DNA from: Brooklawnia propionicigenes
Lineage (GTDB): Bacteria; Actinomycetota; Actinomycetes; Propionibacteriales; Propionibacteriaceae
NCBI RefSeq assembly: GCF_030297015.1
Contig: NZ_AP028056.1
Location: forward strand, 816,939-880,938
Direction of reading: 5' to 3'
Length of the DNA: 64,000 nucleotides
Part shown: piece by piece, positions 2 through 13,963 of the stretch
Layout of the letters: every line of letters begins with the position of its first letter
How positions within the stretch are numbered: the stretch's first letter is position 1
Translations under genes and position numbers: made by a program
Notes under the pieces: generated by a model
Databases searched by the model: none
What the model saw: only the letters and a program-made list of their open reading frames with translations
Told to the model about the DNA's origin: nothing

Positions 2-1729
2 AAGCCACTTGAGCAATTCCCCGGCTGGGGTAGGCACTTATGGCGCATGAGAACTGAACTCGGCAACCGAGCGACGTTCTCGAAACGCACGTACTTTGCG
101 GAAGGGCGCCCTTGGTACGAGTGGCACCAATTGCCGCCTGACCACGACGCGCACCCATGGGTAATCACGTTCGCGTTCGTGGCGACGCACAACCACTTCG
201 TGCTCGACCGGGGCGGCAAGGTGTTCAACCGGTCGGCGCCGGTGATCAAGCTGCCGGCGGAGGCGTCCGAGGACGATCACCTGAGGCTGCTCGGTGTCCT
301 GAACTCGTCGACCGCCTGTTTCTGGTTGAAGCAGAACAGCCACAACAAGGGCAGCACGGTTGACCAGAAGGGGGCTCGCCAGACGACCGTGGCGTGGGAG
401 AACTTCTACGAGTTCACTGGCACGACCCTGCAGGACTTCCCGCTCCCGAAGGCCCTCCCGCTGGAGCGCGCCCGCATTCTCGACACCCTTGCCCAGCAAC
501 TCACCCGCCACCAAGTCGCAACGCTCATCGAATCCACCACCCCGACCGCTGAACTGCTCCGCGACGCCGAAGCCGCCCAGACGTCCCTCCGAAACCAGAT
601 GATCGCCCACCAGGAGGAACTGGACTGGGAGGTGTACGCGTCCTACGGGCTGCTGGATGAGGCGCTCACCTACGACGACGAACCCCCACTAGTGAAGCTT
701 GGCGAGCGCGCGTTCGAGATCGTCCTCGCCCGCAAGATCGCTGCCGGTGAGGATGACACCTCGTGGTTCTCCCGGCACGGGTCCACCCCGATCACCGAGA
801 TCCCGACCCATTGGCCGGCCGCCTACCGCGACCTCGTCCAGCGGCGCATCGACGCGATCGGGTCCGTGGATGCGATCCGGCTGCTGGAGGCTCCCGAGTT
901 CAAGCGGCGTTGGGCGTCCGAACCGTTCGACAAGCAGGCCGAGACCGCGCTGCGCGGCTGGCTGCTCGACCGAGTGGAGAACCGGGAGTTGTGGTTCAGT
1001 GCGCAGGGCCACCCGACTCCGCAGTCGGTCAGCCAGTTGGCCGACGTGCTCGGCCGGGACGCCGAGTTCCGTGGCGTCGTCGAGTTGTGGCAGCGCCGCC
1101 GTGACGTCAACCTCACCGAGGCGCTGACCACGCTGCTCGACCCCGAGGCCGTGCCCTACCTGGCCGCGTTCCGGTTGAAGGATTCGGGGTTGCGCAAGTC
1201 CGCCGAGTGGCAGCACACCTGGGCGCTGCAGCGGCGCGAGGATGCCGGCGAGACCCTGGCCATCCCGGTGCCGCCGAAGTACACCAACGCCGACTTCCGC
1301 AAGCAGTCGTACTGGTCGGCCCGCGGCAAGCTCGACGTGCCCAAGGAGCGCTTCATCCTCTACCCGGGCGCAGGGCGGGAGACCGACCCGACGCCGCTGC
1401 TCGGCTGGGCGGGCTGGGACCACGCCCAGCAGTCCCTCGCTCTGGCCACGATCATCCAGCAACGCCAGGCCGAGGGCGCCGACGACTCGACGCTGGTCCC
1501 GCTGGTCGCGGGGATGGCCGAACTGCAACCCTGGGTCGAGCAGTGGCACGCGTCCGTCGACCCGCTGTTCGGCATCAGCCCGGCCGCGTTCTGCGGCGAA
1601 CAACTCCGGGGCCATTGCCAGGCCCTCGGCGTCACCCTGGACGACTTGGCGCGCTGGCGTCCCGCAGCATCCTCACGCGGGCGCTTGCGTCCCGCGCCAC
1701 TGACCCGCGGAAGGAGGGCCCGTTCGTGA
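2..1729 (+). CDS. pglX: BREX-2 adenine-specific DNA methyltransferase PglX, C-terminal part (5' end outside window)
   Basis: The frame is open from base 2 with no stop, so about 576 residues of a protein that in this family is near 1200 residues are visible; the catalytic N-terminal half lies left of the window. The visible part has the target-recognition style region (VLNSSTACFWLKQNS near the start, TTLQDFPLP) and the family C-terminal region (SWFSRHGSTPITEIPTHW). PglX is the methyltransferase of the phage growth limitation/BREX type 2 system and marks host DNA. The stop overlaps the GTG start of pglY, with an AAGGAGGG ribosome site inside pglX. Identity rests on the family-like C-terminus plus the pglY-pglZ-brxD-brxHI order that follows. 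Confidence 0.9.
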   Translation, partial: KPLEQFPGWGRHLWRMRTELGNRATFSKRTYFAEGRPWYEWHQLPPDHDAHPWVITFAFVATHNHFVLDRGGKVFNRSAPVIKLPAEASEDDHLRLLGVLNSSTACFWLKQNSHNKGSTVDQKGARQTTVAWENFYEFTGTTLQDFPLPKALPLERARILDTLAQQLTRHQVATLIESTTPTAELLRDAEAAQTSLRNQMIAHQEELDWEVYASYGLLDEALTYDDEPPLVKLGERAFEIVLARKIAAGEDDTSWFSRHGSTPITEIPTHWPAAYRDLVQRRIDAIGSVDAIRLLEAPEFKRRWASEPFDKQAETALRGWLLDRVENRELWFSAQGHPTPQSVSQLADVLGRDAEFRGVVELWQRRRDVNLTEALTTLLDPEAVPYLAAFRLKDSGLRKSAEWQHTWALQRREDAGETLAIPVPPKYTNADFRKQSYWSARGKLDVPKERFILYPGAGRETDPTPLLGWAGWDHAQQSLALATIIQQRQAEGADDSTLVPLVAGMAELQPWVEQWHASVDPLFGISPAAFCGEQLRGHCQALGVTLDDLARWRPAASSRGRLRPAPLTRGRRARS

Positions 1730-4700
1730 GTGCCCTGCTGCGTGACATCTTCACCATCCCCGAGACCACCTCGAGCGCCGACTACGTGCTGCGGCTCACC
1801 GAGAGCGTCGACGCCGCGCACCTGGACCGCACGCTGGACGACTACGTGGTCACCGACCCGATCGCGCGCGCGTTCGACACCGCGCTGGGGGTCGTCGGCG
1901 AGGCGATCGACGCCAACACCAGCAAGGGCGCGTTCCTTACCGGCACGTTCGGATCGGGCAAGAGCCACTTCATGGCGGTGCTGTATGCGCTGCTGCGTCA
2001 GCATCCCAAGGCCCGGGCGATCCCCGACCTGACGGCGGTCATTGCCCGCCACGACCCGCACCTGCAGGACCGCAAGGTGCTGCCGCTGACCTTTCACATG
2101 CTGGGCGCCACGTCGATGGAACAGGCGCTGTTCGACGGCTACCTGCGTCAGGTGCGCGACCTGCATCCCGACGCCACGCTGCCGCTGCTGCACCAGACCG
2201 CGCGGTTGCTGGCCGACGCCGACGCGCTGCGCGGGCGGCTGGGCGACGACGCGTTCTTCGCCGGCCTCAACGAGGGTTCCGGGGCAGCAGACTCGTGGGG
2301 CGCGGTGCTCGGCGACGCCGGCACCTGGAACGCCGAAACCTACGAGGCGGCGAAGGCCGCGTCCGCCACCGACCCCCGGCGCGCCGAACTGGTGGCCGCC
2401 CTACAGCAGCACTACTTCGGCTCCTATGTCGGCCAGGCCACCCACGTCGGGCTGGACGAGGGCCTGACCGCGATCACCGAGCACGCGCAGTCGCTCGGCT
2501 ACGACGCGGTCGTGCTGTTCCTGGACGAACTGGTGCTGTGGCTGGCGTTCCGCATCCGTGACCATGAGTTCTTCGGAACCGAGAGCCAGAAGCTCACCAA
2601 ACTGGTCGAGGGCGGCCAGGGCGGCAGGCCGATTCCGCTGGTGTCGTTCGTCGCCCGCCAGATGGACCTGAAGCGCTGGCTCGCCGACTCCGGGGCCAGC
2701 GGGGCCGAGCAGCAGACCCTGGAGCAGTCATTCAACTTCCAGGAGGGGCGGTTCCGCAAGATCACCCTCGGCGACGACAACCTGCCCTACGTCGCCAACA
2801 AGCGGCTGCTTACCCCGCGGGACGACGCCGCGGCCGCCCAGATCGACGAGGCGTTCGCGCGGCTGGACCGGCGGGCCGAGTCGTGGGACGTGCTGCTCGA
2901 CGGCATCAACACCGACGCGTCGCACAAGGGCGCCGACGCCGCCCAGTTCAGGCTCACCTACCCGTTCTCGCCCGCGCTGGTTTCGACCCTGCGGTCGCTG
3001 GCCGGGGTGATGCAGCGTGAACGCACCGCGTTGAAGGTCATGCAGCAGATTCTCGTCGACCGCCGCGACACCCTGACCATCGACGACGTCATCCCGGTCG
3101 GGGACGCGTTCGACTACCTGGTGACCGGGGCCGCCGGCGACCAGCCGCTGGACGAGGCCTCCGCGGCGCTCTTCCGAGCGGCGAGCACCCTCTACCAGCA
3201 GCGCCTGCAGCCGCTGATCCTCAAGGAGTACGGACTCACTGCCGCCGACCTGCTTGATGCCGGGCCGGCGCGTCCACCCGCCCTGGAGGCCGACCTGCGG
3301 CTGGCGAAAACCCTGCTGCTCAGCGCGGTGGCGCCCAACGTGCCGGCGCTCAAGGGGCTGACCGCGGGACGACTGGCGTCCCTGAACCACGGGTCGATCC
3401 GGTCGCCGCTGCCCAACGGTGAGGCTGCGGTCGTGCTGGCCAAGGTGCGGCAGTGGGCGGCGCAGGTGCCCGAGATCAAGGTCGAGACCGACGCCCGCAA
3501 CCCGCAGATCTCGCTGCAACTGTCCGACGTCGACTACGAGTCGATCATCGACCGCGCCCGCGGCGAGGACAACACCGGACGCCAACGCGACCTCATCAAG
3601 CGGCTGGTCGCCGAGGCGTTCGGGCTGGCCGACCTCGGCGCCCAGGACATGCTCGGCGGCTACACCCACCGGCGGGTGTGGCGCGGCACGGTGCGCGACG
3701 TCGGGCTGGTGTTCGGCAACGTCCGCGACGCCGGCTGGCTGACCGACGAGCACTTCCGGGCCCCGCAGGGCACCTGGAAGTTCGTCATCGACCACCCGTT
3801 CGACGACCCGGGCCACTCACCGACCGAGGACCACGCCCGCATCGACGCGATGCGCGCGCGTAACTGGGACGAGAACACCATCGTGTGGCTGCCGCGGTTC
3901 TTCAGCGACGACCGCATGAAGGACGTCAGCCGCCTCGTGGTGCTCAACTACCTGCTCGAGGGGACCGGCGAACGGTACGCCAGCTACGCCGACCACCTGT
4001 CCGAAACCGGGCGGGTGCAGGCGAAGGCGATCCTGCAGTCCCAGCGCGAGGCGCTGCTGCACCGGCTGCGGCAGGCTATTCAGGTGGCCTACGACGTCGA
4101 GTCGCCGGTACGCGCCGGCGACGTCGTGAGCGGCGCGGCCCACCCGGACGTGCTGTCGTCGCTGACCCCGACGTTCACCCCGCGGCCACCCGCCGGCGGG
4201 ACGCTGCGCCAGGGCTTCGAGGCGCTGGTCGACGACGCGTTCGCCAGCAGCTACCCGGGCCACCCGCGCTTCGAACCCGGCGAGGTCGAGGTGCGGCCAC
4301 GCGACCTGCAGGCTGTCTACGGCTACGTCGAACAGGCGCTGCGTGACAGCGAGGGGCGCGTCCCGCTCGGCGCGGACGCCGTCGTCGTCCGACGGATCGC
4401 GAACCCGCTCGGGGTCGGCAAGGCGGCCGAGACGCACTTCCTGATGGGCGACGAGTACTTCGGCACCTGGGGCCCGGAGTTCGAGCGGCGCCTCGGGGCC
4501 CGGGACGCCGACGCCCTCGGCCCGGTGACCGTCGGCGAGGTGCGCGGCTGGATCCAGGCGATGGAGCCCGCGCTGGGGTTGACCCGCGAGGTCGCCGACC
4601 TGGTGATCCTGGCGTGGGCGGCGCTGCGCCGCCGGGCCTGGTTCTCGCACGGGGCGCCGATCCCGGCGCCGAAGCCGGGCGGGCTGCGCGACGAGATGGA

Positions 4701-5523
4701 GCTGCGCGTCCAGCCGATGCCGACCCAGCAGACGTGGGAGGTGGCGAGGACGCTGGCCGGCTCGGTGTTCGGGGTGAACGCGTCGGCCTACGTCACCCCC
4801 GCCGAGGTCGCGAACCTGGCGTCCGCGGTGCACGGCCGGGCCGTCGAACTCAACCAGCCCGCCCACCGGCTGGCCGGCTCACTGGAGCGGGCGCGGACGA
4901 AACTGAGGATGGGTGTTTCCGCTGCTCCGGGCCGCCTGGCGACCGCGCGGGCGACGGCGGAGTTGTGTGACGGACTTCGCGGGCTGCAGGGCCTGCCGCT
5001 GATCGAGCGGCTGGCCGCGGCCGGGGCCGGTGCGGCGGCGCTGCCGGAGCCCACGGATGCCGGGCGGTCGCTGAAAAGTGCCGCCGAGGTCGCGGGGCTG
5101 CTGGACAGGTTCTCGTGGCAACGGTTCGAGCCGCTGTTCGCCGGGAGGCAGGGCGAGGGCGTCCGGGCAGATGAGGCGGCCGGCATCCTGCGGCGGCTGA
5201 GTGAGGCGGTGGACGCCGACGAGTTCAGCGTCCCGATTGCCCCGGCGCTCAAGCGGGCCGAGGACGAACTGTTCGCCTGGTTGGCGCGCGGGGCGAAACC
5301 GGACGTACCGGCTGGACCGGATGTTGGTGGGCAGACCCCCGGCGCGACCGAGGCTGACGACGAGCTCGAAACCGGGAGCCAACCCCGGCGGGCGGCGTCC
5401 GGCGGGGCGAGGATCAGCCGCGGACGCGGTGCCCGCGACGCCCGTGCTGCCGCCGCCCAACTGGAGGCGTTCGTCGCCGAGCATCCAGACGATGACGTCG
5501 TCGTCGAATGGCGGGTCGAATGA
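1726..5523 (+). CDS. pglY: BREX-2 system ATPase PglY
   Basis: A 1265-residue P-loop ATPase, close to the usual length of PglY. Walker A is GTFGSGKSHF near residue 75 and a Walker B-like VVLFLDEL lies near residue 261. GTG at 1726 is chosen as the start because it overlaps the pglX stop (GTGA) and has AAGGAGGG eight bases upstream; the same frame runs open further upstream, but that part is out of frame with pglX and lacks a ribosome site. The C-terminus is low-complexity, rich in Gly, Ala and Arg. PglY is essential in the Streptomyces Pgl system; its exact biochemical role is not settled. The stop overlaps pglZ by 4 bases, so translation is coupled. Confidence 0.93.
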   Translation: MSALLRDIFTIPETTSSADYVLRLTESVDAAHLDRTLDDYVVTDPIARAFDTALGVVGEAIDANTSKGAFLTGTFGSGKSHFMAVLYALLRQHPKARAIPDLTAVIARHDPHLQDRKVLPLTFHMLGATSMEQALFDGYLRQVRDLHPDATLPLLHQTARLLADADALRGRLGDDAFFAGLNEGSGAADSWGAVLGDAGTWNAETYEAAKAASATDPRRAELVAALQQHYFGSYVGQATHVGLDEGLTAITEHAQSLGYDAVVLFLDELVLWLAFRIRDHEFFGTESQKLTKLVEGGQGGRPIPLVSFVARQMDLKRWLADSGASGAEQQTLEQSFNFQEGRFRKITLGDDNLPYVANKRLLTPRDDAAAAQIDEAFARLDRRAESWDVLLDGINTDASHKGADAAQFRLTYPFSPALVSTLRSLAGVMQRERTALKVMQQILVDRRDTLTIDDVIPVGDAFDYLVTGAAGDQPLDEASAALFRAASTLYQQRLQPLILKEYGLTAADLLDAGPARPPALEADLRLAKTLLLSAVAPNVPALKGLTAGRLASLNHGSIRSPLPNGEAAVVLAKVRQWAAQVPEIKVETDARNPQISLQLSDVDYESIIDRARGEDNTGRQRDLIKRLVAEAFGLADLGAQDMLGGYTHRRVWRGTVRDVGLVFGNVRDAGWLTDEHFRAPQGTWKFVIDHPFDDPGHSPTEDHARIDAMRARNWDENTIVWLPRFFSDDRMKDVSRLVVLNYLLEGTGERYASYADHLSETGRVQAKAILQSQREALLHRLRQAIQVAYDVESPVRAGDVVSGAAHPDVLSSLTPTFTPRPPAGGTLRQGFEALVDDAFASSYPGHPRFEPGEVEVRPRDLQAVYGYVEQALRDSEGRVPLGADAVVVRRIANPLGVGKAAETHFLMGDEYFGTWGPEFERRLGARDADALGPVTVGEVRGWIQAMEPALGLTREVADLVILAWAALRRRAWFSHGAPIPAPKPGGLRDEMELRVQPMPTQQTWEVARTLAGSVFGVNASAYVTPAEVANLASAVHGRAVELNQPAHRLAGSLERARTKLRMGVSAAPGRLATARATAELCDGLRGLQGLPLIERLAAAGAGAAALPEPTDAGRSLKSAAEVAGLLDRFSWQRFEPLFAGRQGEGVRADEAAGILRRLSEAVDADEFSVPIAPALKRAEDELFAWLARGAKPDVPAGPDVGGQTPGATEADDELETGSQPRRAASGGARISRGRGARDARAAAAQLEAFVAEHPDDDVVVEWRVE

Positions 5524-8231
5524 CCGCGGACGTGATCCCCGGCGCAACCGTGACGCCGGCCGTGGCCCGGGCCATCATCGACCAGGCCCGCGCCAGCCGA
5601 TACCCGCACGGGGTGCTGGGGCTGCGCGCCAGCCCGGCGGCAACCAGACAGGTCAGCTTCACCCACCGCGATCAGCCGGTTCAGATCGTGCCCGCCGCGT
5701 CGGCCCTGGCGGTGCGCGAGGCGATCCGGCAGGCCGAGCCGAGCGGCTGGTTGGTCGTCGTCACCGACCGCAGCGACGACGACCTGGGCCCCGGGCTGCT
5801 CGCCCAGTTCGTCTGGCAGCGGCTGCGACACCCCAACCCGTGGCAGGCCGTACAGCAGCGGTTCAGCGCGAACGGCGTCGACGCCAAACTGCTGCAGACC
5901 CGGCAGGCCCGCGAGGTCGCCACCGGCCTGCTCGAACTGTCCCCGCCCGACGGCTGGCCGCCCGCCCCGGCCGGCGTCCTCACCCGCGACCACGCGCTAG
6001 GCTGCGTCGCGCGAACCGAACTGGGACTGCCCGACGGGCCGGTCGACCTGATCACCGTGCTGCACTGGTCGACCCAGCGTGGCCTGGCGGCGACGATCGC
6101 CCGGCTGCGGGCCCGCGCCGGCGAGGCCACGGTCGACGCCGTGCTCGACTGGATCGCCGAAGCCGCCGGCGAGGCGGCCCCGCTGGTCGCCGCCCTGCTG
6201 CGAGCCGGGAACCCGAGCGACATCGTCCCGCTGGGGGTGGTGCTCGACTGCCTGCTGCAGTCCCCGACCAGGCAGGACGCCGAGCTCGCGCTGGCCCGGC
6301 TCGAACATCGCTGGGGCGACGTGCCGCGTGCTGCGCTGCAGGCCACCGCCCGACTGTCCGGAGTCGTGGTCACCGGCCTGCTGGGTGGCCGGGCGACCGT
6401 CGAGAACGCCCGTCAGGTGCTCGTTCGAGCCGACGAGTTGTTGACAGAGGCGCAGGCTCTGCCCTTGGCGGGGGCCTCCCGGTTGCTGCCCTCGGGACTG
6501 ACCCGACGGCTCAGGGCTCTCGCCGAGACCTTTCGGACGGTGCCCAATGACGACCCGGTCAGGCTGGAGGCGGCGTGGGCGAAGGTGACCGAACACGAGC
6601 TCAGCGAGGTCGACCCCCGGGTCGCGCCAGCGCGGGCAGGCGTCCGGTTGGCCCGCTGGCTGCGGACTCCCGACGTTCCGACGGCCACGCTGGCCGAACT
6701 GGCCGGCAGGCACCTGGCCGTGGACGCCTGGGTCGACTCGGCGGTCAACGACGCCGAGACCGGGGTCGACGAGCACAGCCTGGCTGCCGCGCTCGAGCAC
6801 GTGCTGGGGCAGGTGCAGCAACGTCGCGACGACCACGACCTTGTCTTCGCGGCGGCACTTGCCCGGGAAGGCTGCGGTGGACGCGTCCCGGGGCTGCTCG
6901 GGCTGGAGGATCTGCTGCCCGAGGTCGTCGTCCCGCTCGCCCGCAAGTATCCGACGCTGCTGCTCGTGTTGGACGGCATGAGTGCCGGGGTCGCCACCGA
7001 GATCCTGACCCACGCGACGCTTGAGTTCGATCTGCAGGAGTGCCAGTTGCCGGGAGCCACCGCCCGGACGCCGGCGTTGGCGGTGCTACCCACGGTCACC
7101 GAATTCAGCCGGGCGTCCCTGCTCAGCGGACGCCTCACCTCGGGCCAGCAGGACGCCGAACGCGCGGGATTCGAGGCTCTCGCCCAGGCGCACAGTCTTG
7201 GCGAGGTGAAGCTGGTCCACAAGAAGGGACTCGACAGCTCGCGGCAGGGTTTCGAACTGGCCGACGACGTGCGGCAGGCGATCTCGGACGTCGACCGGTA
7301 CAAGCTGGTCGGCTGCGTCCTCAACACCATCGACGACGCCCTCGACCGCACCGATCCGGGCGGCACCGACTGGACCGCCGAGACCGTCAAACACCTCGCC
7401 CCGCTGCTGCGGGCGGCGATGTCCGCGGGACGCCTGGTGGTGCTCACCAGCGACCACGGCCACGTGGTGGAGCGGCGGCGCGGCACCCAACGAGGCACCG
7501 GCGTGGGAGGACGCTACCGGGCCGCGACCAGCGGGCCGGTCGAGGCCGATGAGGTGCTGGCCAGCGGGCCGCGCGTGCTGACTCCCGATCATCAGGCGGT
7601 GCTGGCCGTCAACGAGCGGCTGCGGTACGGGCCACTGAAGGCCGGCTACCACGGCGGTGCGGCGCCCGCGGAGGCCGTAGTGCCGGTCGCGTTGCTGACC
7701 CCCTCGACGCTCGTCCACGACCTGGTCGTGGCACCAGTCGCGGAACCGGACTGGTGGGAGACCGCCGGCATCTCCGGTGGCGGTGGGCTAGGTGTGCTCG
7801 GCGCCAACGGGCCGGCGTCCGCGCCGTCCGGACGTGTCGCCCGGGTGAAGGCACCCGAGCGGCAACCCGACCTGTTCAGCGAACCCGAACCGGTGCCGGC
7901 GGGTGATCAGCCCGGGGTGGGTGCCGCCCTGGTGGCCAGCGCCACCTACCGGGCCCAGAAGTCGCTGGTCGGACGCCTGGGAGTCACCGATGAGGCGATC
8001 GCGACCTTGGTCGACGCCTTGGCGTCCGCGACCGACCGGCGACTGCCGGCCGGTCGCGTCGCGCCTGTGCTGGGGGTGAGCGCCAATCGGGTGCCGATGG
8101 TGATGAGTCAGGTCGCGAAACTGCTCAACGTCGAGGGCTACCCCGTGGTCTCGACCGACCCCGCCACCCAGGCGGTCACCCTGGACGCCGCGCTGCTCGC
8201 CGAGCAGTACGGGGTGTATCAGACTCCATAA
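5520..8231 (+). CDS. pglZ: BREX-2 alkaline-phosphatase-superfamily protein PglZ
   Basis: About 903 residues. The PglZ alkaline-phosphatase-like domain is visible from LVLDGMSAG (near residue 483) to the metal-binding SDHGHV (near 644). The C-terminal segment ends in a predicted helical DNA-binding-like domain. The start is ATG at 5520, in ATGA overlap with the pglY stop; ATG at 5508 in the same frame is an alternative, and neither has a strong ribosome site, so coupling to pglY is likely. PglZ is the signature protein of all BREX types. The next gene begins 215 bases later, an unusually wide gap for this operon, and the gap contains a repeated promoter-like motif. Confidence 0.93.
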   Translation: MTADVIPGATVTPAVARAIIDQARASRYPHGVLGLRASPAATRQVSFTHRDQPVQIVPAASALAVREAIRQAEPSGWLVVVTDRSDDDLGPGLLAQFVWQRLRHPNPWQAVQQRFSANGVDAKLLQTRQAREVATGLLELSPPDGWPPAPAGVLTRDHALGCVARTELGLPDGPVDLITVLHWSTQRGLAATIARLRARAGEATVDAVLDWIAEAAGEAAPLVAALLRAGNPSDIVPLGVVLDCLLQSPTRQDAELALARLEHRWGDVPRAALQATARLSGVVVTGLLGGRATVENARQVLVRADELLTEAQALPLAGASRLLPSGLTRRLRALAETFRTVPNDDPVRLEAAWAKVTEHELSEVDPRVAPARAGVRLARWLRTPDVPTATLAELAGRHLAVDAWVDSAVNDAETGVDEHSLAAALEHVLGQVQQRRDDHDLVFAAALAREGCGGRVPGLLGLEDLLPEVVVPLARKYPTLLLVLDGMSAGVATEILTHATLEFDLQECQLPGATARTPALAVLPTVTEFSRASLLSGRLTSGQQDAERAGFEALAQAHSLGEVKLVHKKGLDSSRQGFELADDVRQAISDVDRYKLVGCVLNTIDDALDRTDPGGTDWTAETVKHLAPLLRAAMSAGRLVVLTSDHGHVVERRRGTQRGTGVGGRYRAATSGPVEADEVLASGPRVLTPDHQAVLAVNERLRYGPLKAGYHGGAAPAEAVVPVALLTPSTLVHDLVVAPVAEPDWWETAGISGGGGLGVLGANGPASAPSGRVARVKAPERQPDLFSEPEPVPAGDQPGVGAALVASATYRAQKSLVGRLGVTDEAIATLVDALASATDRRLPAGRVAPVLGVSANRVPMVMSQVAKLLNVEGYPVVSTDPATQAVTLDAALLAEQYGVYQTP

Positions 8232-8239
8232 GGTCGTCT

Positions 8240-8427
8240 AAGGGATTTGCATATACGAGCCCACCGTGACGTCGCCCATCGTCCGTGCTCCGGTTCGGGA
8301 GTTCGAAGCTCGGCAGAACGGGAACTGACCCATGGCAGAACAGGCGCTCACCGCAGTGCAGGCCGGGGACAAGACGTCCGTTAGCGTGTCAGGCCGTATC
8401 GTCCCTTATAAGGAAAATGCTTATACG
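8240..8427 (+). promoter_or_regulatory. Paired degenerate repeat, possible operator or promoter elements
   Basis: AAGGGATTTGCATATACG at 8240-8257 and AAGGAAAATGCTTATACG at 8410-8427 agree at 14 of 18 positions and bracket the gap between pglZ and the extra ATPase gene. The second copy overlaps the 8-bp palindrome CTTATAAG (8405-8412). They look like two copies of a regulatory site, but no known regulator consensus is matched. Confidence 0.45.
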
Positions 8428-8433
8428 TCGTGA
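8332..8433 (+). CDS. Possible 33-residue small ORF between pglZ and the AAA+ ATPase
   Basis: ATG at 8332 opens a 33-residue frame that ends in TGA at 8431-8433, just before the start of the ATPase gene. The peptide begins MAEQALTAVQAGDK and ends YKENAYTS. There is no strong ribosome site (only CGGGAA upstream). The second repeat copy lies inside the frame, so the ORF may be a by-product of the regulatory sequence. I do not recognise it. Confidence 0.25.
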   Translation: MAEQALTAVQAGDKTSVSVSGRIVPYKENAYTS

Positions 8434-8439
8434 TAGGTT
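8434..8439 (+). promoter_or_regulatory. -10 box for a leaderless AAA+ ATPase transcript
   Basis: TAGGTT, preceded by TG one base away (extended -10), stands exactly 7 bases before the ATG at 8447. This spacing puts the transcription start at the start codon. It suggests that the ATPase gene has its own promoter within the BREX operon. Confidence 0.55.
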
Positions 8440-8446
8440 CTTACAC

Positions 8447-9628
8447 ATGGACCCGGTGATGAATCCTTTCCGTCCCGGCGCCGGTCGCAGGCCTCCAGTC
8501 CTTGCCGGCCGGGAGCGGATTCTGGCCAGCTTCGACGTGGTCCTGAGACGTGCCGAGGAGTTCGGTGAGGGTGACCGGAGCTGGGTCGTCACCGGGCTCC
8601 GCGGAGTGGGAAAGACGGTGCTTCTCAACGAACTGATGGGTCAGGCCAACGTTCGAAAGTGGATCGTTGCGAAAGTCGAAGCGTCATCGTCCACCCCCTT
8701 ACGAAAGATCCTCGCGACAGAGCTGGTCAAGGCGATGCGTACTGCCACGGGCAGGCATCCCAACGGCTCCCACCTCAAACGCGCACTGGGTGTCTTGAAG
8801 TCCTTCACGCTGAAGCTGGGGATCGAAGGAATCACGCTCGGCGCCGAGGTTGAGCCGCAGCACGGTGTCGCTGACAGCGGCAGATTCGGCCACGACCTCA
8901 CAGCTCTCCTTGAAGTGGTCGGTGAAGCTTCACTCGATTTCGGTGTCGGGACGCTCATCCTGGTTGATGAGCTGCAGGAAGCCTCCAGCTCCGACCTCGA
9001 AGCAATCAACATGGCCGTCCACGCGCTCGGTCAAGCTGACGTTCCACTTCCAGTGTTCTTCGTAGGTGCCGGCCTCCCGTCACTACCAGCACAGCTCGCT
9101 GAAGCAGCCAGCCACGCCGAGCGGCTGTACGTGTACCAGCCGGTCGGACTCCTGGGGTCGGACGACGTGCGCAAGGCCTTGGTAGAGCCCTGTCTCGATC
9201 TGGGCGCAACCTGGGAGGAGGACGCACTCAGTGCTGCGCAGCACGTGGCCCGCGGATATCCCTACTTCGTTCAGTCCATTGGCAAGCACGTCTGGGATCT
9301 GGCACCCGGTCCTGTCGTTCGCGCCGACGACGTCTTGGCGGGCAGCGCCCTGGCGCGGGAAGAGATCGACGCCGGACTCTACCGATCCAGATGGGAACGG
9401 GCCACGGCCGCCCAGCGCAGACTGCTGATCGGCATGGCCCAACTGAGTAGAGAGAACGCCGTCGAGATCGGCGAACTTGCCACTCACTTGAGAAAAGCCC
9501 GGACATCAGACCTTTCGGTTGCACGAGGGGAATTGATCAAGAAGGGATTGGTCTACGTCCCTGAAAGGGGCTTGGTCGCATTCACAGTGCCCGGGATGTC
9601 GGACTTCGTGCTGAGTCAGGAAGAGTGA
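8447..9628 (+). CDS. AAA+ ATPase with C-terminal winged-helix-like region, inserted in the BREX-2 operon
   Basis: A 393-residue protein. The N-terminus has the pattern NPFRPGAG..PPVLAGRE common in Orc1/Cdc6-like stand-alone bacterial ATPases. Walker A is GLRGVGKT (residues 50-57), Walker B LILVDELQ (near 171). The last 70 residues (ELATHLRKA ... VARGELIKKGLVYVPERG) look like a winged helix that could bind DNA. It is not one of the six canonical BREX-2 genes, yet it sits on the same strand between pglZ and brxD and overlaps brxD by 4 bases. ATG at 8447 is preferred over upstream starts because the family N-terminus begins there and a -10 box lies 7 bases before it. Codon use is slightly less GC-rich than in its neighbours, as expected of a later insertion. 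Its role in defence is inference. Confidence 0.8.
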   Translation: MDPVMNPFRPGAGRRPPVLAGRERILASFDVVLRRAEEFGEGDRSWVVTGLRGVGKTVLLNELMGQANVRKWIVAKVEASSSTPLRKILATELVKAMRTATGRHPNGSHLKRALGVLKSFTLKLGIEGITLGAEVEPQHGVADSGRFGHDLTALLEVVGEASLDFGVGTLILVDELQEASSSDLEAINMAVHALGQADVPLPVFFVGAGLPSLPAQLAEAASHAERLYVYQPVGLLGSDDVRKALVEPCLDLGATWEEDALSAAQHVARGYPYFVQSIGKHVWDLAPGPVVRADDVLAGSALAREEIDAGLYRSRWERATAAQRRLLIGMAQLSRENAVEIGELATHLRKARTSDLSVARGELIKKGLVYVPERGLVAFTVPGMSDFVLSQEE

Positions 9629-10977
9629 TCCCAGGAGTGAGTCAAACAGTCTCCCCCAGGCGCCGCCGCGAGGTGATCGATGCGCTGCGCCGCGGCACCG
9701 TGCCCGCCAACGGGTTGGACCTGCTCGCCGTCGGGCTCGACCGCTTCGGCCCGGCACTCGACGCCGAACTGGACGCAGTGTCCGGCGGATCGGCGGTCTT
9801 CAAGGCCGTTCGCGGCGAGTACGGCTCGGGCAAGACGTTCTTCACCCGGCATCTGGCCGAGCGTGCGCTGCGGCGGGGCTGGGCGAGCGCCGAGGTGCAG
9901 ATCAGCGAGACCGAGACCCCGCTGCACCGCCTCGAGACGGTCTACCGGCGCATCACGGAGTCGCTGCGGACCGCGACCGTCCCGCCGAGCGCGTTCCGGT
10001 CGAGCCTGGACAGCTGGCTGTTCACCCTCGAGTCGGACGCCATCGCTGCCAACCCGACGCTCGCCGGCGCGTCCGACGCAGCCTTGACCGTCGAGGTGGA
10101 TCGACTCCTGGAGAGCCGGCTGGCCGCGATATCGACCAAGACGCCGGCGTTCGCGCAGGCGCTGCGCGGCTACCGGGCCGCGTCCCTTGTCGGTGACGCG
10201 CCCACCGCGGGCGGCCTTGCGGCCTGGGTGGGCGGGCAGCCGCACGTGGCGGCGTCCGCCAAACGTGCCGCGGGCGTCCGCGGCGACCTCGACCACTTCG
10301 GGGCGATGGCCTTCCTGCAGGGGCTCCTGACTGTTCTGAAGGACGCAGGCCACCCCGGGCTGCTGGTCGTGCTGGACGAGGTCGAGACCCTGCAACGCGT
10401 CCGCGGCGACGTGCGCGACAAGGCGCTGAACGCCTTGCGGCAGCTGATCGACGAGGTCGACTCGGGACGCTACCCCGGCCTCTACCTGCTCATCACCGGC
10501 ACGCCGGCGTTCTTCGAAGGGCCGTCCGGACTTTCGCGGCTGGCCCCCCTGGCCCAGCGCGTCCACACCGACTTCACCACCGACGCCCGGTTCGACAACC
10601 CGCGCGCGGTGCAGATGCGGCTGCCCGGTTTCAAGCGCGACAGCCTCGTGGAGCTGGGAGGGAAGGTGCGGGACCTGTACGCCGAGGGGTCCGCGGACGC
10701 CGGCCGGATCCGCGCTGTCGTCGATGACGCCTATCTGGGTGACCTGGCGGACGCAGTAGCCGGCTCGCTGGGCGGTCGGATCGGGGTGGCGCCCCGGGTG
10801 TTCCTGAAGAAGCTGGTCAGCGACGTCCTCGACCGGGTCGACCAGTTCGCGGACTTCGACCCTCGCGTCCACTACGCGCTGACGGTGTCCGAGGGGGAGC
10901 TGACGGCAGTGGAGCGCAATGCCGCGCGGAGGACGTCCGACCTGGATGCGATCGAGCTGGACACCTCGGGCGCCTGA
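9625..10977 (+). CDS. brxD: BREX-2 P-loop ATPase BrxD (DUF2791 family)
   Basis: A 450-residue P-loop protein with Walker A GEYGSGKT (residues 64-71) and Walker B VVLDEVET near residue 247, matching the BrxD/DUF2791 ATPases of BREX type 2. GTG at 9625 overlaps the preceding stop (GTGA) and has AGGAAG just upstream; GTG at 9637 is an alternative. Its stop overlaps the brxHI start (TGATGA-type junction). The C-terminal part (IGVAPRVFLKKLV) is typical of the family. BrxD is thought to work with BrxHI. Confidence 0.88.
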   Translation: MIPGVSQTVSPRRRREVIDALRRGTVPANGLDLLAVGLDRFGPALDAELDAVSGGSAVFKAVRGEYGSGKTFFTRHLAERALRRGWASAEVQISETETPLHRLETVYRRITESLRTATVPPSAFRSSLDSWLFTLESDAIAANPTLAGASDAALTVEVDRLLESRLAAISTKTPAFAQALRGYRAASLVGDAPTAGGLAAWVGGQPHVAASAKRAAGVRGDLDHFGAMAFLQGLLTVLKDAGHPGLLVVLDEVETLQRVRGDVRDKALNALRQLIDEVDSGRYPGLYLLITGTPAFFEGPSGLSRLAPLAQRVHTDFTTDARFDNPRAVQMRLPGFKRDSLVELGGKVRDLYAEGSADAGRIRAVVDDAYLGDLADAVAGSLGGRIGVAPRVFLKKLVSDVLDRVDQFADFDPRVHYALTVSEGELTAVERNAARRTSDLDAIELDTSGA

Positions 10978-13103
10978 TGACCGGCTTCGACGCCCTCCAC
11001 CCCGTGGTGCAGCACCACATCGTCAACGAGTTGGGGTGGCGCGAACTGCGACCGCTGCAGGACGATGCGGTGGCGCCGCTGCTGGCCGGTGAGGACGCGC
11101 TGCTGCTCGCCCCGACCGCCGGCGGCAAGACCGAGGCGGCGCTGTTCCCGCTGCTGACGCGGATGGCAGGCGAATCGTGGAGCGGCACGTCACTGCTGTA
11201 CGTGTGCCCGTTGCGGGCGCTGCTCAACAATCTCGAGGCGCGGGTGAACCGGTACGCGTCCTGGCTGGGACGCTCGGCTGCCGTCCGGCACGGCGACACC
11301 TCACAGGGCGTGCGCCGACGGATGATGGTGGATCAACCAGACATCCTGCTGACGACACCGGAGTCGCTCGAGGCGATGCTGGTGTCGGCGACGATCAACC
11401 CCCGGTCACTGCTCAGCGAGGTGCGAGCGGTGGTGGTCGACGAGGTGCACGCGTTCGCCGGTGACGACCGCGGCTGGCATCTGCTGGCCGTCATCGAGCG
11501 ACTGACGAAGCTGGCCGGACGCCCACTGCAGCGGGTCGGGCTGTCCGCGACGGTGGGGAACGCCGACGACCTACTGGCGTGGCTGCAGGGCAGCAAGCGG
11601 GGCCGACGTCCCGGACGCGTGCTCGCGCCGAAGGCGATTGGCGGTGGGGCGCCGGAGATTGCGCTCGACTACGTCGGGTCGCTGCCCAACGCGGCGACCG
11701 TGATCGCGCGGTTGCACCGCGGCGAGAAGCGGCTGGTGTTCGCCGACTCGCGGCGGACCGTCGAGCAGCTGGGCGTCGGGCTGGCGGAGCTCGGGGTTGA
11801 AACGTACGTGTCACACTCGAGCCTTTCGGTCGCGGAGCGGCGACGTTCCGAGGCTGCCTTCGCGCAGGGACGCGACTGCGTGATCGTGGCCACCTCGACC
11901 CTCGAGCTCGGGATCGACGTCGGCGACCTCGACCGGGTGTTGCAGGTCGGCTCCCCTTCGACGGTGGCGTCGCTGCTGCAGCGGGTAGGGCGGACGGGAC
12001 GTCGCCCGGGCGCGGTCCGGAACCTGACGGTGTTGGCTCCCGACGATGACGCGCTGCTGCGCGCGACCGGGTTGCTGCTGTTATGGTCGGAAGGGTACGT
12101 CGAGCCGATCAGCCCTCCCCCGCACGCGGCGCACATCGCGGCCCAGCAGGTGCTGGCGTTGGCGCTTCAGGAGCGGCAGATCGGGCGCCACACCTGGCAG
12201 GACTGGCTCGACGGCCTGGAATTGGTGCCACCGACAGAGGCGGACGCCATCGTCGAAGGACTGCTCGCCAAGGGCGTGCTGGACGAGGACTCCGGCATGC
12301 TGTTCGTCGGCCCGGAGGCCGAGAAGCGCTACGGGCGGCGGCACTTCATGGAACTGATGAGCGTGTTCACCTCCGACCCCCAGGTGACCGTGCTGCACGG
12401 ACGCACCGAGATCGGCGCGGTCGACCCGATGGTGCTGGTGTCGAAGGTGCCCGGGCCGCGGCGCTTGACGCTCGCCGGGCGCACGTGGACGGTGACCGCG
12501 GTCGACTGGACGCGGCGCCGGGCATACGTGGAACCCTCCGAGGGCTCCGGGACCGCGCGCTGGCTCGGGACGTCCGCGCCGTTGCGGGGACGGCTCGTGG
12601 ACGCGATGCGGCGCGTCCTGCTCGGAGCCACGCCCCACGGGGTGGGCCTTTCAGGGCGGGCGTCCGAACGGTTGGCCGGGCTGCGCGCCGAACTCGGCGA
12701 CCGGGTCGACGCCGAACGCACAGTCGTCCTGCACGAGGACGGCCAGACGCGGTGGTGGACCTGGGCGGGCGGACGAGCGAACGCGGTCCTGCACGCGGCC
12801 CTGGACGCCGTCGCCCCCGAGCTGTGCCACCCCGACAGCACCTACACCAACGACCACATCGTCCTGCGCGGCGAAGCGACGGAGTCCGGGCTTGGGGCCG
12901 CGCTCGCGGCCGCGAACCAGCGCTTCGGCGAAGATCTCGCCGGCGTACAGCCCGAAGTGATGCAGCGAGCAGTCCAAGAGCTTAAGTTCGGCGACCTGCT
13001 CCCGGACACCCTCGCGCACGCCACGTTGAGCGAACGACTCGCCGACCACCCCGGCGCGGCCAGTGCAGTTGGGCGTCCGCGCGTCGAACGCTGGACGTTG
13101 TGA
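10977..13103 (+). CDS. brxHI: BREX-2 superfamily 2 helicase BrxHI (Lhr-like DEAD/DEAH helicase)
   Basis: A 708-residue SF2 helicase. Motif I is APTAGGKTE (near residue 45), motif II VVDEVHAF (near 154), motif III LSATVG, and motif VI LLQRVGRTGRRPG (near 335), as in Lhr-type helicases. ATG at 10977 overlaps the brxD stop. BrxHI closes the canonical BREX-2 gene set, and the operon ends here: the next 200 bases carry no gene and then an insertion-sequence remnant begins on the other strand. Confidence 0.9.
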   Translation: MTGFDALHPVVQHHIVNELGWRELRPLQDDAVAPLLAGEDALLLAPTAGGKTEAALFPLLTRMAGESWSGTSLLYVCPLRALLNNLEARVNRYASWLGRSAAVRHGDTSQGVRRRMMVDQPDILLTTPESLEAMLVSATINPRSLLSEVRAVVVDEVHAFAGDDRGWHLLAVIERLTKLAGRPLQRVGLSATVGNADDLLAWLQGSKRGRRPGRVLAPKAIGGGAPEIALDYVGSLPNAATVIARLHRGEKRLVFADSRRTVEQLGVGLAELGVETYVSHSSLSVAERRRSEAAFAQGRDCVIVATSTLELGIDVGDLDRVLQVGSPSTVASLLQRVGRTGRRPGAVRNLTVLAPDDDALLRATGLLLLWSEGYVEPISPPPHAAHIAAQQVLALALQERQIGRHTWQDWLDGLELVPPTEADAIVEGLLAKGVLDEDSGMLFVGPEAEKRYGRRHFMELMSVFTSDPQVTVLHGRTEIGAVDPMVLVSKVPGPRRLTLAGRTWTVTAVDWTRRRAYVEPSEGSGTARWLGTSAPLRGRLVDAMRRVLLGATPHGVGLSGRASERLAGLRAELGDRVDAERTVVLHEDGQTRWWTWAGGRANAVLHAALDAVAPELCHPDSTYTNDHIVLRGEATESGLGAALAAANQRFGEDLAGVQPEVMQRAVQELKFGDLLPDTLAHATLSERLADHPGAASAVGRPRVERWTL

Positions 13104-13309: not shown

Positions 13310-13963
13310 CTAGTTGTATTGCCCTGTGAGGTTGTGATCGCGTTCTGATGGTGCTTGGCCGCCGATGCCGGTGTGGGGTCGGTAATGATTGTAGTGGTGA
13401 AGCCAGGCGGTGTAGGCCTGTTCGCGTTCGGTTTCGCTGGTGTACGGGCGTGAGTAGGCCCATTCGTTGGCCAGGATGCGGTTGAATCGTTCGACTTTCC
13501 CGTTGGTCTGGGGCCGGTAGGGCCTGGTCTGGCGGTGTTTGATGCCGTCGCTGGTCAAGACGTCGTTGAACAGGGCGGAGCGGTAGCAAGAGCCGTTGTC
13601 GGTCATCACTGCTGCCACGCTCACCCCGATACTGGTGAAGAACGCCAAGGCCCGGTCGATGAATCCGGCAGCGGTCTGTTTCCGTTCGTCGTCAAGGATC
13701 TCGGAGTAGGCGACCCGGGAGTAGTCATCGACAGCGTGGTGGAGATACCGGTAGCCCCGCGGCCGGGCCGCGGCCCGGCCGGTTTTCGCTTGCGCAGAGC
13801 CCCGCCCGTGGGCTCGCCACCCGCCACCGTCGGGGATACGGCCCTGTTTCTTGATATCGACATGGACCAGTTCCCCGGGGGCTGTCTTCTCATAGCGCAC
13901 CGGAACGGTTGGACGCACGGGCAGCCCGGTGGCCTGATCGATATCGGCCAGGGCCGGCATCCG
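13310..13963 (-). pseudogene. 5'-truncated IS481-type transposase (DDE integrase core)
   Basis: The 217-residue frame holds the whole rve/DDE catalytic core of IS481-type transposases: first Asp in VHVDIKKQG, second in VMTDNGSCYR, Glu in GKVERFNRI, followed by RPHTGIGGQAPSERD. Full-length family members are about 320 residues and start with a helix-turn-helix. That part is missing: similarity stops abruptly at MPALADIDQATGLP, near 13963, where unrelated sequence starts. No terminal inverted repeats or target-site duplication could be recognised, so this is a dead fragment left at the edge of the BREX region. Confidence 0.85.

Follow-up and report, generated by a model that had tools for sequence, protein, structure and literature searches.

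A lone ORC/STAND-type ATPase gene at the pglZ-brxD junction of a BREX type 2 operon, a candidate exchangeable accessory defence module

The 64,000-nucleotide stretch of Brooklawnia propionicigenes DNA analyzed here (the window) carries a BREX type 2 operon with an additional ATPase gene between pglZ and brxD. On balance, we lean towards reading this gene as an exchangeable, stand-alone accessory defence module that occupies a cargo slot at the pglZ-brxD junction of actinobacterial BREX-2 operons. An exchangeable module is favoured over a subunit of BREX because of the gene's position, the exchange seen at the junction, its base composition and its ancestry, and a defence activity is suggested by the other genes that occupy this slot in relatives.

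The BREX operon and its inserted gene

The operon was classified as BREX type 2 using PADLOC and NCBIfam, with pglX, pglY, pglZ, brxD and brxHI in order. In what follows, G000 is the window's genome, other G numbers are surveyed genomes and L numbers are loci that were read. The features, all on the + strand, are:

47..1729, +, C-terminal part of pglX (NF033451, 813 bits against a cut-off of 400; the gene starts before the window)
1735..5523, +, pglY/brxC (PADLOC PDLC02488, 1445 bits; NF047891, 995 bits, below its cut-off of 1700)
5508..8231, +, pglZ (NF033446, 779 bits against a cut-off of 200)
8232..8446, +, leader of the insert (215 bases, GC 57% versus 73% in pglZ)
8434..8439, +, -10-like TAGGTT, 7 nt 5′ of the ATG, a putative leaderless-type promoter by TANNNT conservation
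8447..9628, +, inserted gene for a predicted ORC/STAND-type AAA+ ATPase with a C-terminal winged helix (393 aa)
9637..10977, +, brxD (NF033438, 651 bits against a cut-off of 350; start set by comparison)
10977..13103, +, brxHI helicase (PADLOC PDLC02503, 985 bits)

The PglY open reading frame has a mechanical start at 1207, but homology begins only at about residue 177. Upstream, just outside the window, lies pglW, whose product is 65–70% identical to a G082 protein that PADLOC identifies as PglW at 1303 bits, and the full operon order is therefore pglW-pglX-pglY-pglZ-ATPase-brxD-brxHI. Directly 3′ of brxHI, an ORF of transposase type is found on the − strand at 13310–13960; it has the integrase core domains rve and rve_3 and is a possible island edge. 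BREX varies within the window's species, as a second genome of the species (G096) gave no BrxD match.

The ORF at 8447–9628 is intact, with 393 codons, and its neighbours pglZ and brxD are both matched by profiles, in agreement with the first-pass annotation of this DNA, which had placed an extra 393-residue ATPase gene between them. The ATG start fits, since M-D-P also begins the close copies and the relative from Mycobacterium gordonae described below. The same annotation had coupled the gene to brxD by a 4-base overlap, which depends on GTG 9625 being the brxD start and is probably an artefact of start codon choice. An in-frame brxD ATG is found 4 nt past the ATPase stop in G110, G082 and G093, and alignment with these loci makes GTG 9637, 8 nt past the ATPase stop, the more likely start in the window. 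The distance from the pglZ stop to the ATPase ATG in three sister loci is 35, 92 and 92 bases.

Contents of the pglZ-brxD junction

We counted inserts longer than 400 bp at each junction of the operon, leaving out two near-duplicates and one remnant. The pglZ-brxD junction was occupied in 17 of 69 loci (10/15 in Propionibacteriaceae, 7/54 outside) and the pglX-pglY junction in 8 of 48 (0/10 in the family, 8/38 outside), and no insert was found at pglY-pglZ (0/63) or brxD-brxHI (0/67). Comparing pglZ-brxD with brxD-brxHI gives a Fisher p of 5e-6, a test that ignores relatedness among loci that are not independent. Close to the threshold, the 459 bp pglX-pglY gap of L076 was counted and the 370 bp pglZ-brxD gap of L089 fell just under. 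It had been suggested that the gene breaks the canonical operon order; the insert is indeed there, but an insert at this junction is common in the family.

Within Propionibacteriaceae, the slot holds this ATPase in four loci and a three-gene XRE cassette in two, and the further contents are PDC-M07A/B, a DrmD-like HEPN helicase with a TmtA-like protein, a PIN protein with a FitA-type antitoxin, and SoFic. Family contents other than the ATPase read in the operon direction. SoFic and PDC-M07, which PADLOC lists as one- and two-gene modules, resemble the ATPase in occupying this slot in relatives but are unrelated to it, SoFic being a Fic-domain protein and PDC-M07 consisting of an AAA_21 ATPase and a small partner protein. 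Outside the family, GmrSD_N proteins occupy the slot in four loci, reading against the operon, and one of these slots also holds an RT_III-A reverse transcriptase. BrxU/GmrSD has reportedly been located in a BREX island (PMC8565348). No named family was found for the slot contents of L072 and L099, and the XRE cassette likewise has no named defence family. Two genomes carry that cassette, which includes an XRE-type HTH protein, in this slot (L034 11761–13209, and L039); the outer two proteins of the L034 copy had no Pfam or PADLOC match, and it is possibly a toxin-antitoxin unit.

The pglX-pglY junction is a second cargo junction, seen outside Propionibacteriaceae. Five of its eight occupied loci were searched: L062 has a dGTPase and a DDE transposase, L085 an RmrA-like protein paired with a DUF4411 protein and L106 a weak DzbB match, and the inserts of L089 and L095 had no match. 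Two further loci differ in arrangement. L035 and L036 (G017 contigs 11 and 12) are two BREX-2 loci with identical pglZ and brxD, either a duplication or an assembly repeat, and L046 (G124), in which the N-terminal part of pglW is joined almost directly to the C-terminal part of brxD, is a large-deletion remnant of a BREX-2 operon.

An exchange at the junction is visible in G110, a metagenome-assembled genome in which contigs C98 and C99 are 94.6% identical over 2239 bp of pglZ and 97.1% over 866 bp of brxD, with SoFic in the slot of C98 and this ATPase in that of C99. Since the two contigs break off at an identical brxD position (residue 293), they could represent strain variants within a single assembly. 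Decay is evident in the C98 operon, where pglZ lacks the first 154 residues and carries an in-frame stop; the 12.7 kb upstream yielded neither pglX nor pglY, and pglW was found neither there nor in the next 19.5 kb. That the SoFic-bearing copy of the swap pair is decayed weighs against reading the slot as defence cargo, as does the presence of some contents with no named defence family. Unrelated genes, several of them for defence, occupy the junction in relatives, and these, along with the G110 swap and the plasmid-borne nearest non-BREX relatives, give good support to the proposal that the operon served as the site of a mobile cargo gene.

At E ≤ 1e-100, close copies of the ATPase are present in 5 of 198 Propionibacteriaceae genomes, namely that of the window and four others at 99, 86, 80 and 80% identity. 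All five, the window's included, lie between pglZ and brxD; the first-pass annotation held that a gene scattered and never linked to BREX-2 elsewhere would be an incidental insertion, and the close copies do not show that pattern. The 99% copy is in G182, a genome placed in a different genus and showing 9% contamination, and the BREX genes on its contig hardly differ from those of the window; on these grounds the copy could be either a contaminant or the result of a very recent transfer. G082 and G093 also resemble each other closely, with 98% identity in pglZ.

A gene found at the same BREX-2 junction in five of five close copies and spaced tightly to brxD (4–8 nt) could also be a BREX-dedicated accessory, either an ORC-like partner of BrxD/BrxHI or a regulator of the operon acting through its winged helix. 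Other genes at the junction argue against this, since unrelated genes take the same place and 5 of the 15 family loci have nothing there. Across all BrxD loci read, the ATPase is present in 5 of 76, and it is absent from all 58 of those read outside Propionibacteriaceae. We therefore regard a dedicated accessory as rather unlikely, and for the earlier idea of one that senses phage replication or regulates BREX we found nothing in favour beyond position and spacing.

Fold and family of the ATPase

In Pfam, only generic AAA domains were above cut-off (AAA_16, E 1e-13). The ATPase had no match in NCBIfam, and the PADLOC search returned mad8 only (E 0.009 over 27 residues), with no known anti-phage family matched; PHROG 6841, which it does match, is a family of unknown function. 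That no family library names the ATPase counts against a defence role. A sequence search against solved structures gave no match at E ≤ 1, and matches came from the fold search alone. The AlphaFold model used for it, built with input sequences from the window, genome contigs and viral contigs only, has a pLDDT of 91.4 and a pTM of 0.87. Its best solved match was PABY2304 (2qen; Z 24.9, rmsd 4.2, 323 residues), with SSO1545 (2fna) at Z 22.3 and Orc2 (1w5t) at Z 21.6 (rmsd 5.5, 341 residues), and plant and animal STAND proteins matched less well (Z 15–18). BrxB, BrxF and the PglW C-terminal domain, which PMC12839542 discusses, are not named among the 50 structure matches listed, an absence that carries no weight in either direction.

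The protein is predicted to consist of an ORC/STAND-type AAA+ core followed by a C-terminal winged helix, the latter at about residues 321–392 in the predicted secondary structure. Walker A is at residues 50–57 and Walker B at D174-E175, with a conserved R226. Residues G50, G53, G55, T57, D174, E175, R226 and G270-Y271-P272 are invariant across 34 aligned homologues, and K56 is kept in at least 90% of them. We take G270-Y271-P272 to be the G-x-P lid motif, and Walker A, Walker B and this GYP lid motif are all present. The earlier description of an Orc1/Cdc6-like ATPase with a C-terminal domain was right, given the winged helix in the model and a match of the whole chain to archaeal ORC-type ATPases with a winged helix. 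Those ORC/MNS-type ATPases (2qen, 2fna, 1w5t) resemble the insert along almost its entire chain, with an AAA+ core, a lid and a winged helix in common (overall, 323–341 residues at rmsd 4.2–5.5), but they are only 14–15% identical to it, and a common fold says nothing on function; unlike the archaeal ORC-type proteins, the insert has no known origin or replication context. No effector domain is attached to the AAA+ domain and winged helix, and no nuclease family was found using Pfam, PADLOC or NCBIfam, with ATPase-plus-winged-helix structures covering model residues 1–393.

Two roles inside BREX were considered and rejected. BrxD, the product of the next gene, is described as an ORC-Cdc6 ATPase in PMC12839542, a description that would suit an accessory working with it, and like the insert it is an ORC-type P-loop ATPase. 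However, profile comparison of the two gives only a 37-residue Walker A match (probability 66), and the Pfam BrxC_BrxD family (PF10923) reaches 16.0 bits, below its cut-off of 22.2, so the ATPase is not a recognizable BrxD duplicate. PglW is a second candidate, with winged helices and an inactive STAND domain at its C-terminus according to PMC12839542, and a replacement of PglW by the ATPase was rejected because PglW is present upstream in all three of G000, G082 and G110:C99.

The kind of gene is already known, since PMC12839542 reports auxiliary nuclease effectors in BREX loci. These auxiliary or backup effectors are additional defence genes within the core operon or alongside it, thought there to be a second layer, and the insert is likewise placed; it recurs within or next to a BREX core locus, in that paper's sense of the phrase, in five of five close copies, and the four of these on the tree are one clade. 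The GmrSD-type, PIN and HEPN domains of the effectors treated in PMC12839542 recur among the slot contents here. The effectors in the part of its catalogue covered here are nucleases, whereas the insert is an ORC/STAND ATPase that matches no nuclease family. We found no description of exchange at one BREX junction in the sections of PMC12839542 covered, and none of this gene or the pglZ-brxD slot in the article text searched. A non-nuclease ORC/STAND cargo and exchange at the pglZ-brxD junction appear to be new, as far as these sources extend.

Ancestry, expression and proposed role

Beyond the close copies, the wider family is found in 89 of 197 Propionibacteriaceae genomes (E ≤ 1e-10) and 123 of 394 genomes of the class (E ≤ 1e-20), and 116 of 72,556 plasmid records, 41 loci in predicted viral contigs and 1 of 50,697 phage records hold further relatives. 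No BREX was seen in the contexts of these relatives that were read, which also speaks against a BREX-dedicated accessory. In a tree of 45 rows, from which the 99% copy (G182) was left out, the four BREX-linked copies form one clade with a support of 100/100, grouped with a copy from an M. gordonae plasmid (61% identity) and copies from Rhodococcus plasmids (51%). All five BREX-linked copies come from a single family and the four in the tree from a single clade, so the linkage could go back to one event, a point against the cargo-defence reading. G142 holds a decayed remnant from the clade, which is 74% identical over 82 residues at the C-terminus, has lost a large internal part and contains a stop; the 19 kb read around it contain no BREX gene, another point against dedication to BREX.

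The question of scatter raised by the first-pass annotation thus divides: the close copies are all BREX-2-linked, but the wider family (~28–50% identity) is scattered, its largest groups with common neighbours covering 5 of 40 loci. Such scatter, together with relatives on plasmids and predicted viral contigs, would fit an insertion that is incidental or selfish, in which the junction tolerates a solitary mobile ATPase or regulator that plays no part in defence, and the general lack of common neighbours also counts against a defence role. The other nameable slot occupants are mostly defence or toxin-antitoxin genes, which points the other way, and so does selection on the gene. The dN/dS between divergent copies is 0.08–0.10 for the ATPase, 0.07–0.11 for brxD and 0.23–0.31 for pglZ, values that are rough because dS between copies is 1.1–1.5. 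Judged from these values the ATPase gene is under purifying selection, which indicates that it is kept for a function, and we consider an incidental or selfish insertion quite improbable. Selection like that on brxD would also suit a BREX-dedicated accessory.

Several relatives have neighbourhoods of their own. The window's genome has a second family member with 43% identity (L049 8635–9819; G000:C1:1419634-1420803) that adjoins a gene reading by eye as a phosphofructokinase, a neighbour also seen in two other genomes of the genus and one that does not favour a defence role. Both relatives on Rhodococcus plasmids (L190, L191) have a DUF4268 gene in their vicinity, together with a small unnamed gene on the opposite strand.

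The base composition of the ATPase gene (GC 62.2%, third positions 71%) differs from that of the BREX neighbour genes (68–73%, third positions 88–92%, with brxD at 90%), and the whole window is at 66.9%. Actinobacterial leaderless promoters have a TANNNT element spaced just before the start codon. Among the 35 of 43 homologous loci whose start aligned to the window's, some of them near relatives, TANNNT ends 6–8 nt before the start codon in 31, and any other single spacing up to 99 nt occurs in 0–3 of 35. Together with TAGGTT 7 nt before the ATG, this supports the earlier proposal that the gene has its own promoter, and such a promoter-like element counts against a dedicated BREX accessory. 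The leaders resembled imperfect dyads, but significance against shuffled sequences (p < 0.05) was seen in just 2 of 36, which is chance level, so no palindromic operator is claimed; autoregulation of the gene is a guess.

Taking the ATPase as an exchangeable defence module, we propose that it would be a stand-alone ATP-switch protein made of an ORC/STAND-type AAA+ domain and a winged helix, whose ancestry probably lies in a plasmid-borne lineage. The gene would be driven by a leaderless promoter of its own that reads on into brxD-brxHI, and the protein may act as a second defence layer alongside BREX. As predicted from the fold, it would bind and oligomerize on invading phage or plasmid DNA in an ATP-dependent manner through the winged helix, and this assembly could block replication or transcription. 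We consider ATP-dependent assembly on invading DNA to be the most likely mechanism for a protein of this predicted structure.

A broader and more tentative possibility is that solitary winged-helix ATPases of the ORC/STAND type form an unrecognized single-gene family of defence against mobile elements, widespread in Actinomycetes and on plasmids and prophages, of which one lineage was captured by the BREX-2 pglZ-brxD slot as a second layer that acts independently of BREX under its own promoter, which is leaderless and perhaps autoregulated. Should the ATPase prove protective, a family present in 123 of the 394 sampled class genomes would gain a function, and the pglZ-brxD slot would be worth searching for defence genes not yet described. 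The swapping of unrelated defence modules at one junction, with two other junctions closed in every locus counted, suggests that the BREX operon itself serves as a platform for cargo, with certain docking points preferred.

Upstream of the 61% relative on the M. gordonae plasmid (L130 1906–5156) is a two-gene pair that reads by eye as McrBC-like, with weak REase_II matches in PADLOC for the first gene only and an IS3 transposase between the pair and the relative. The same M. gordonae genome has a shortened second copy on another contig (L131 8682–9326; G726:C1), 61% identical over residues 1–188.
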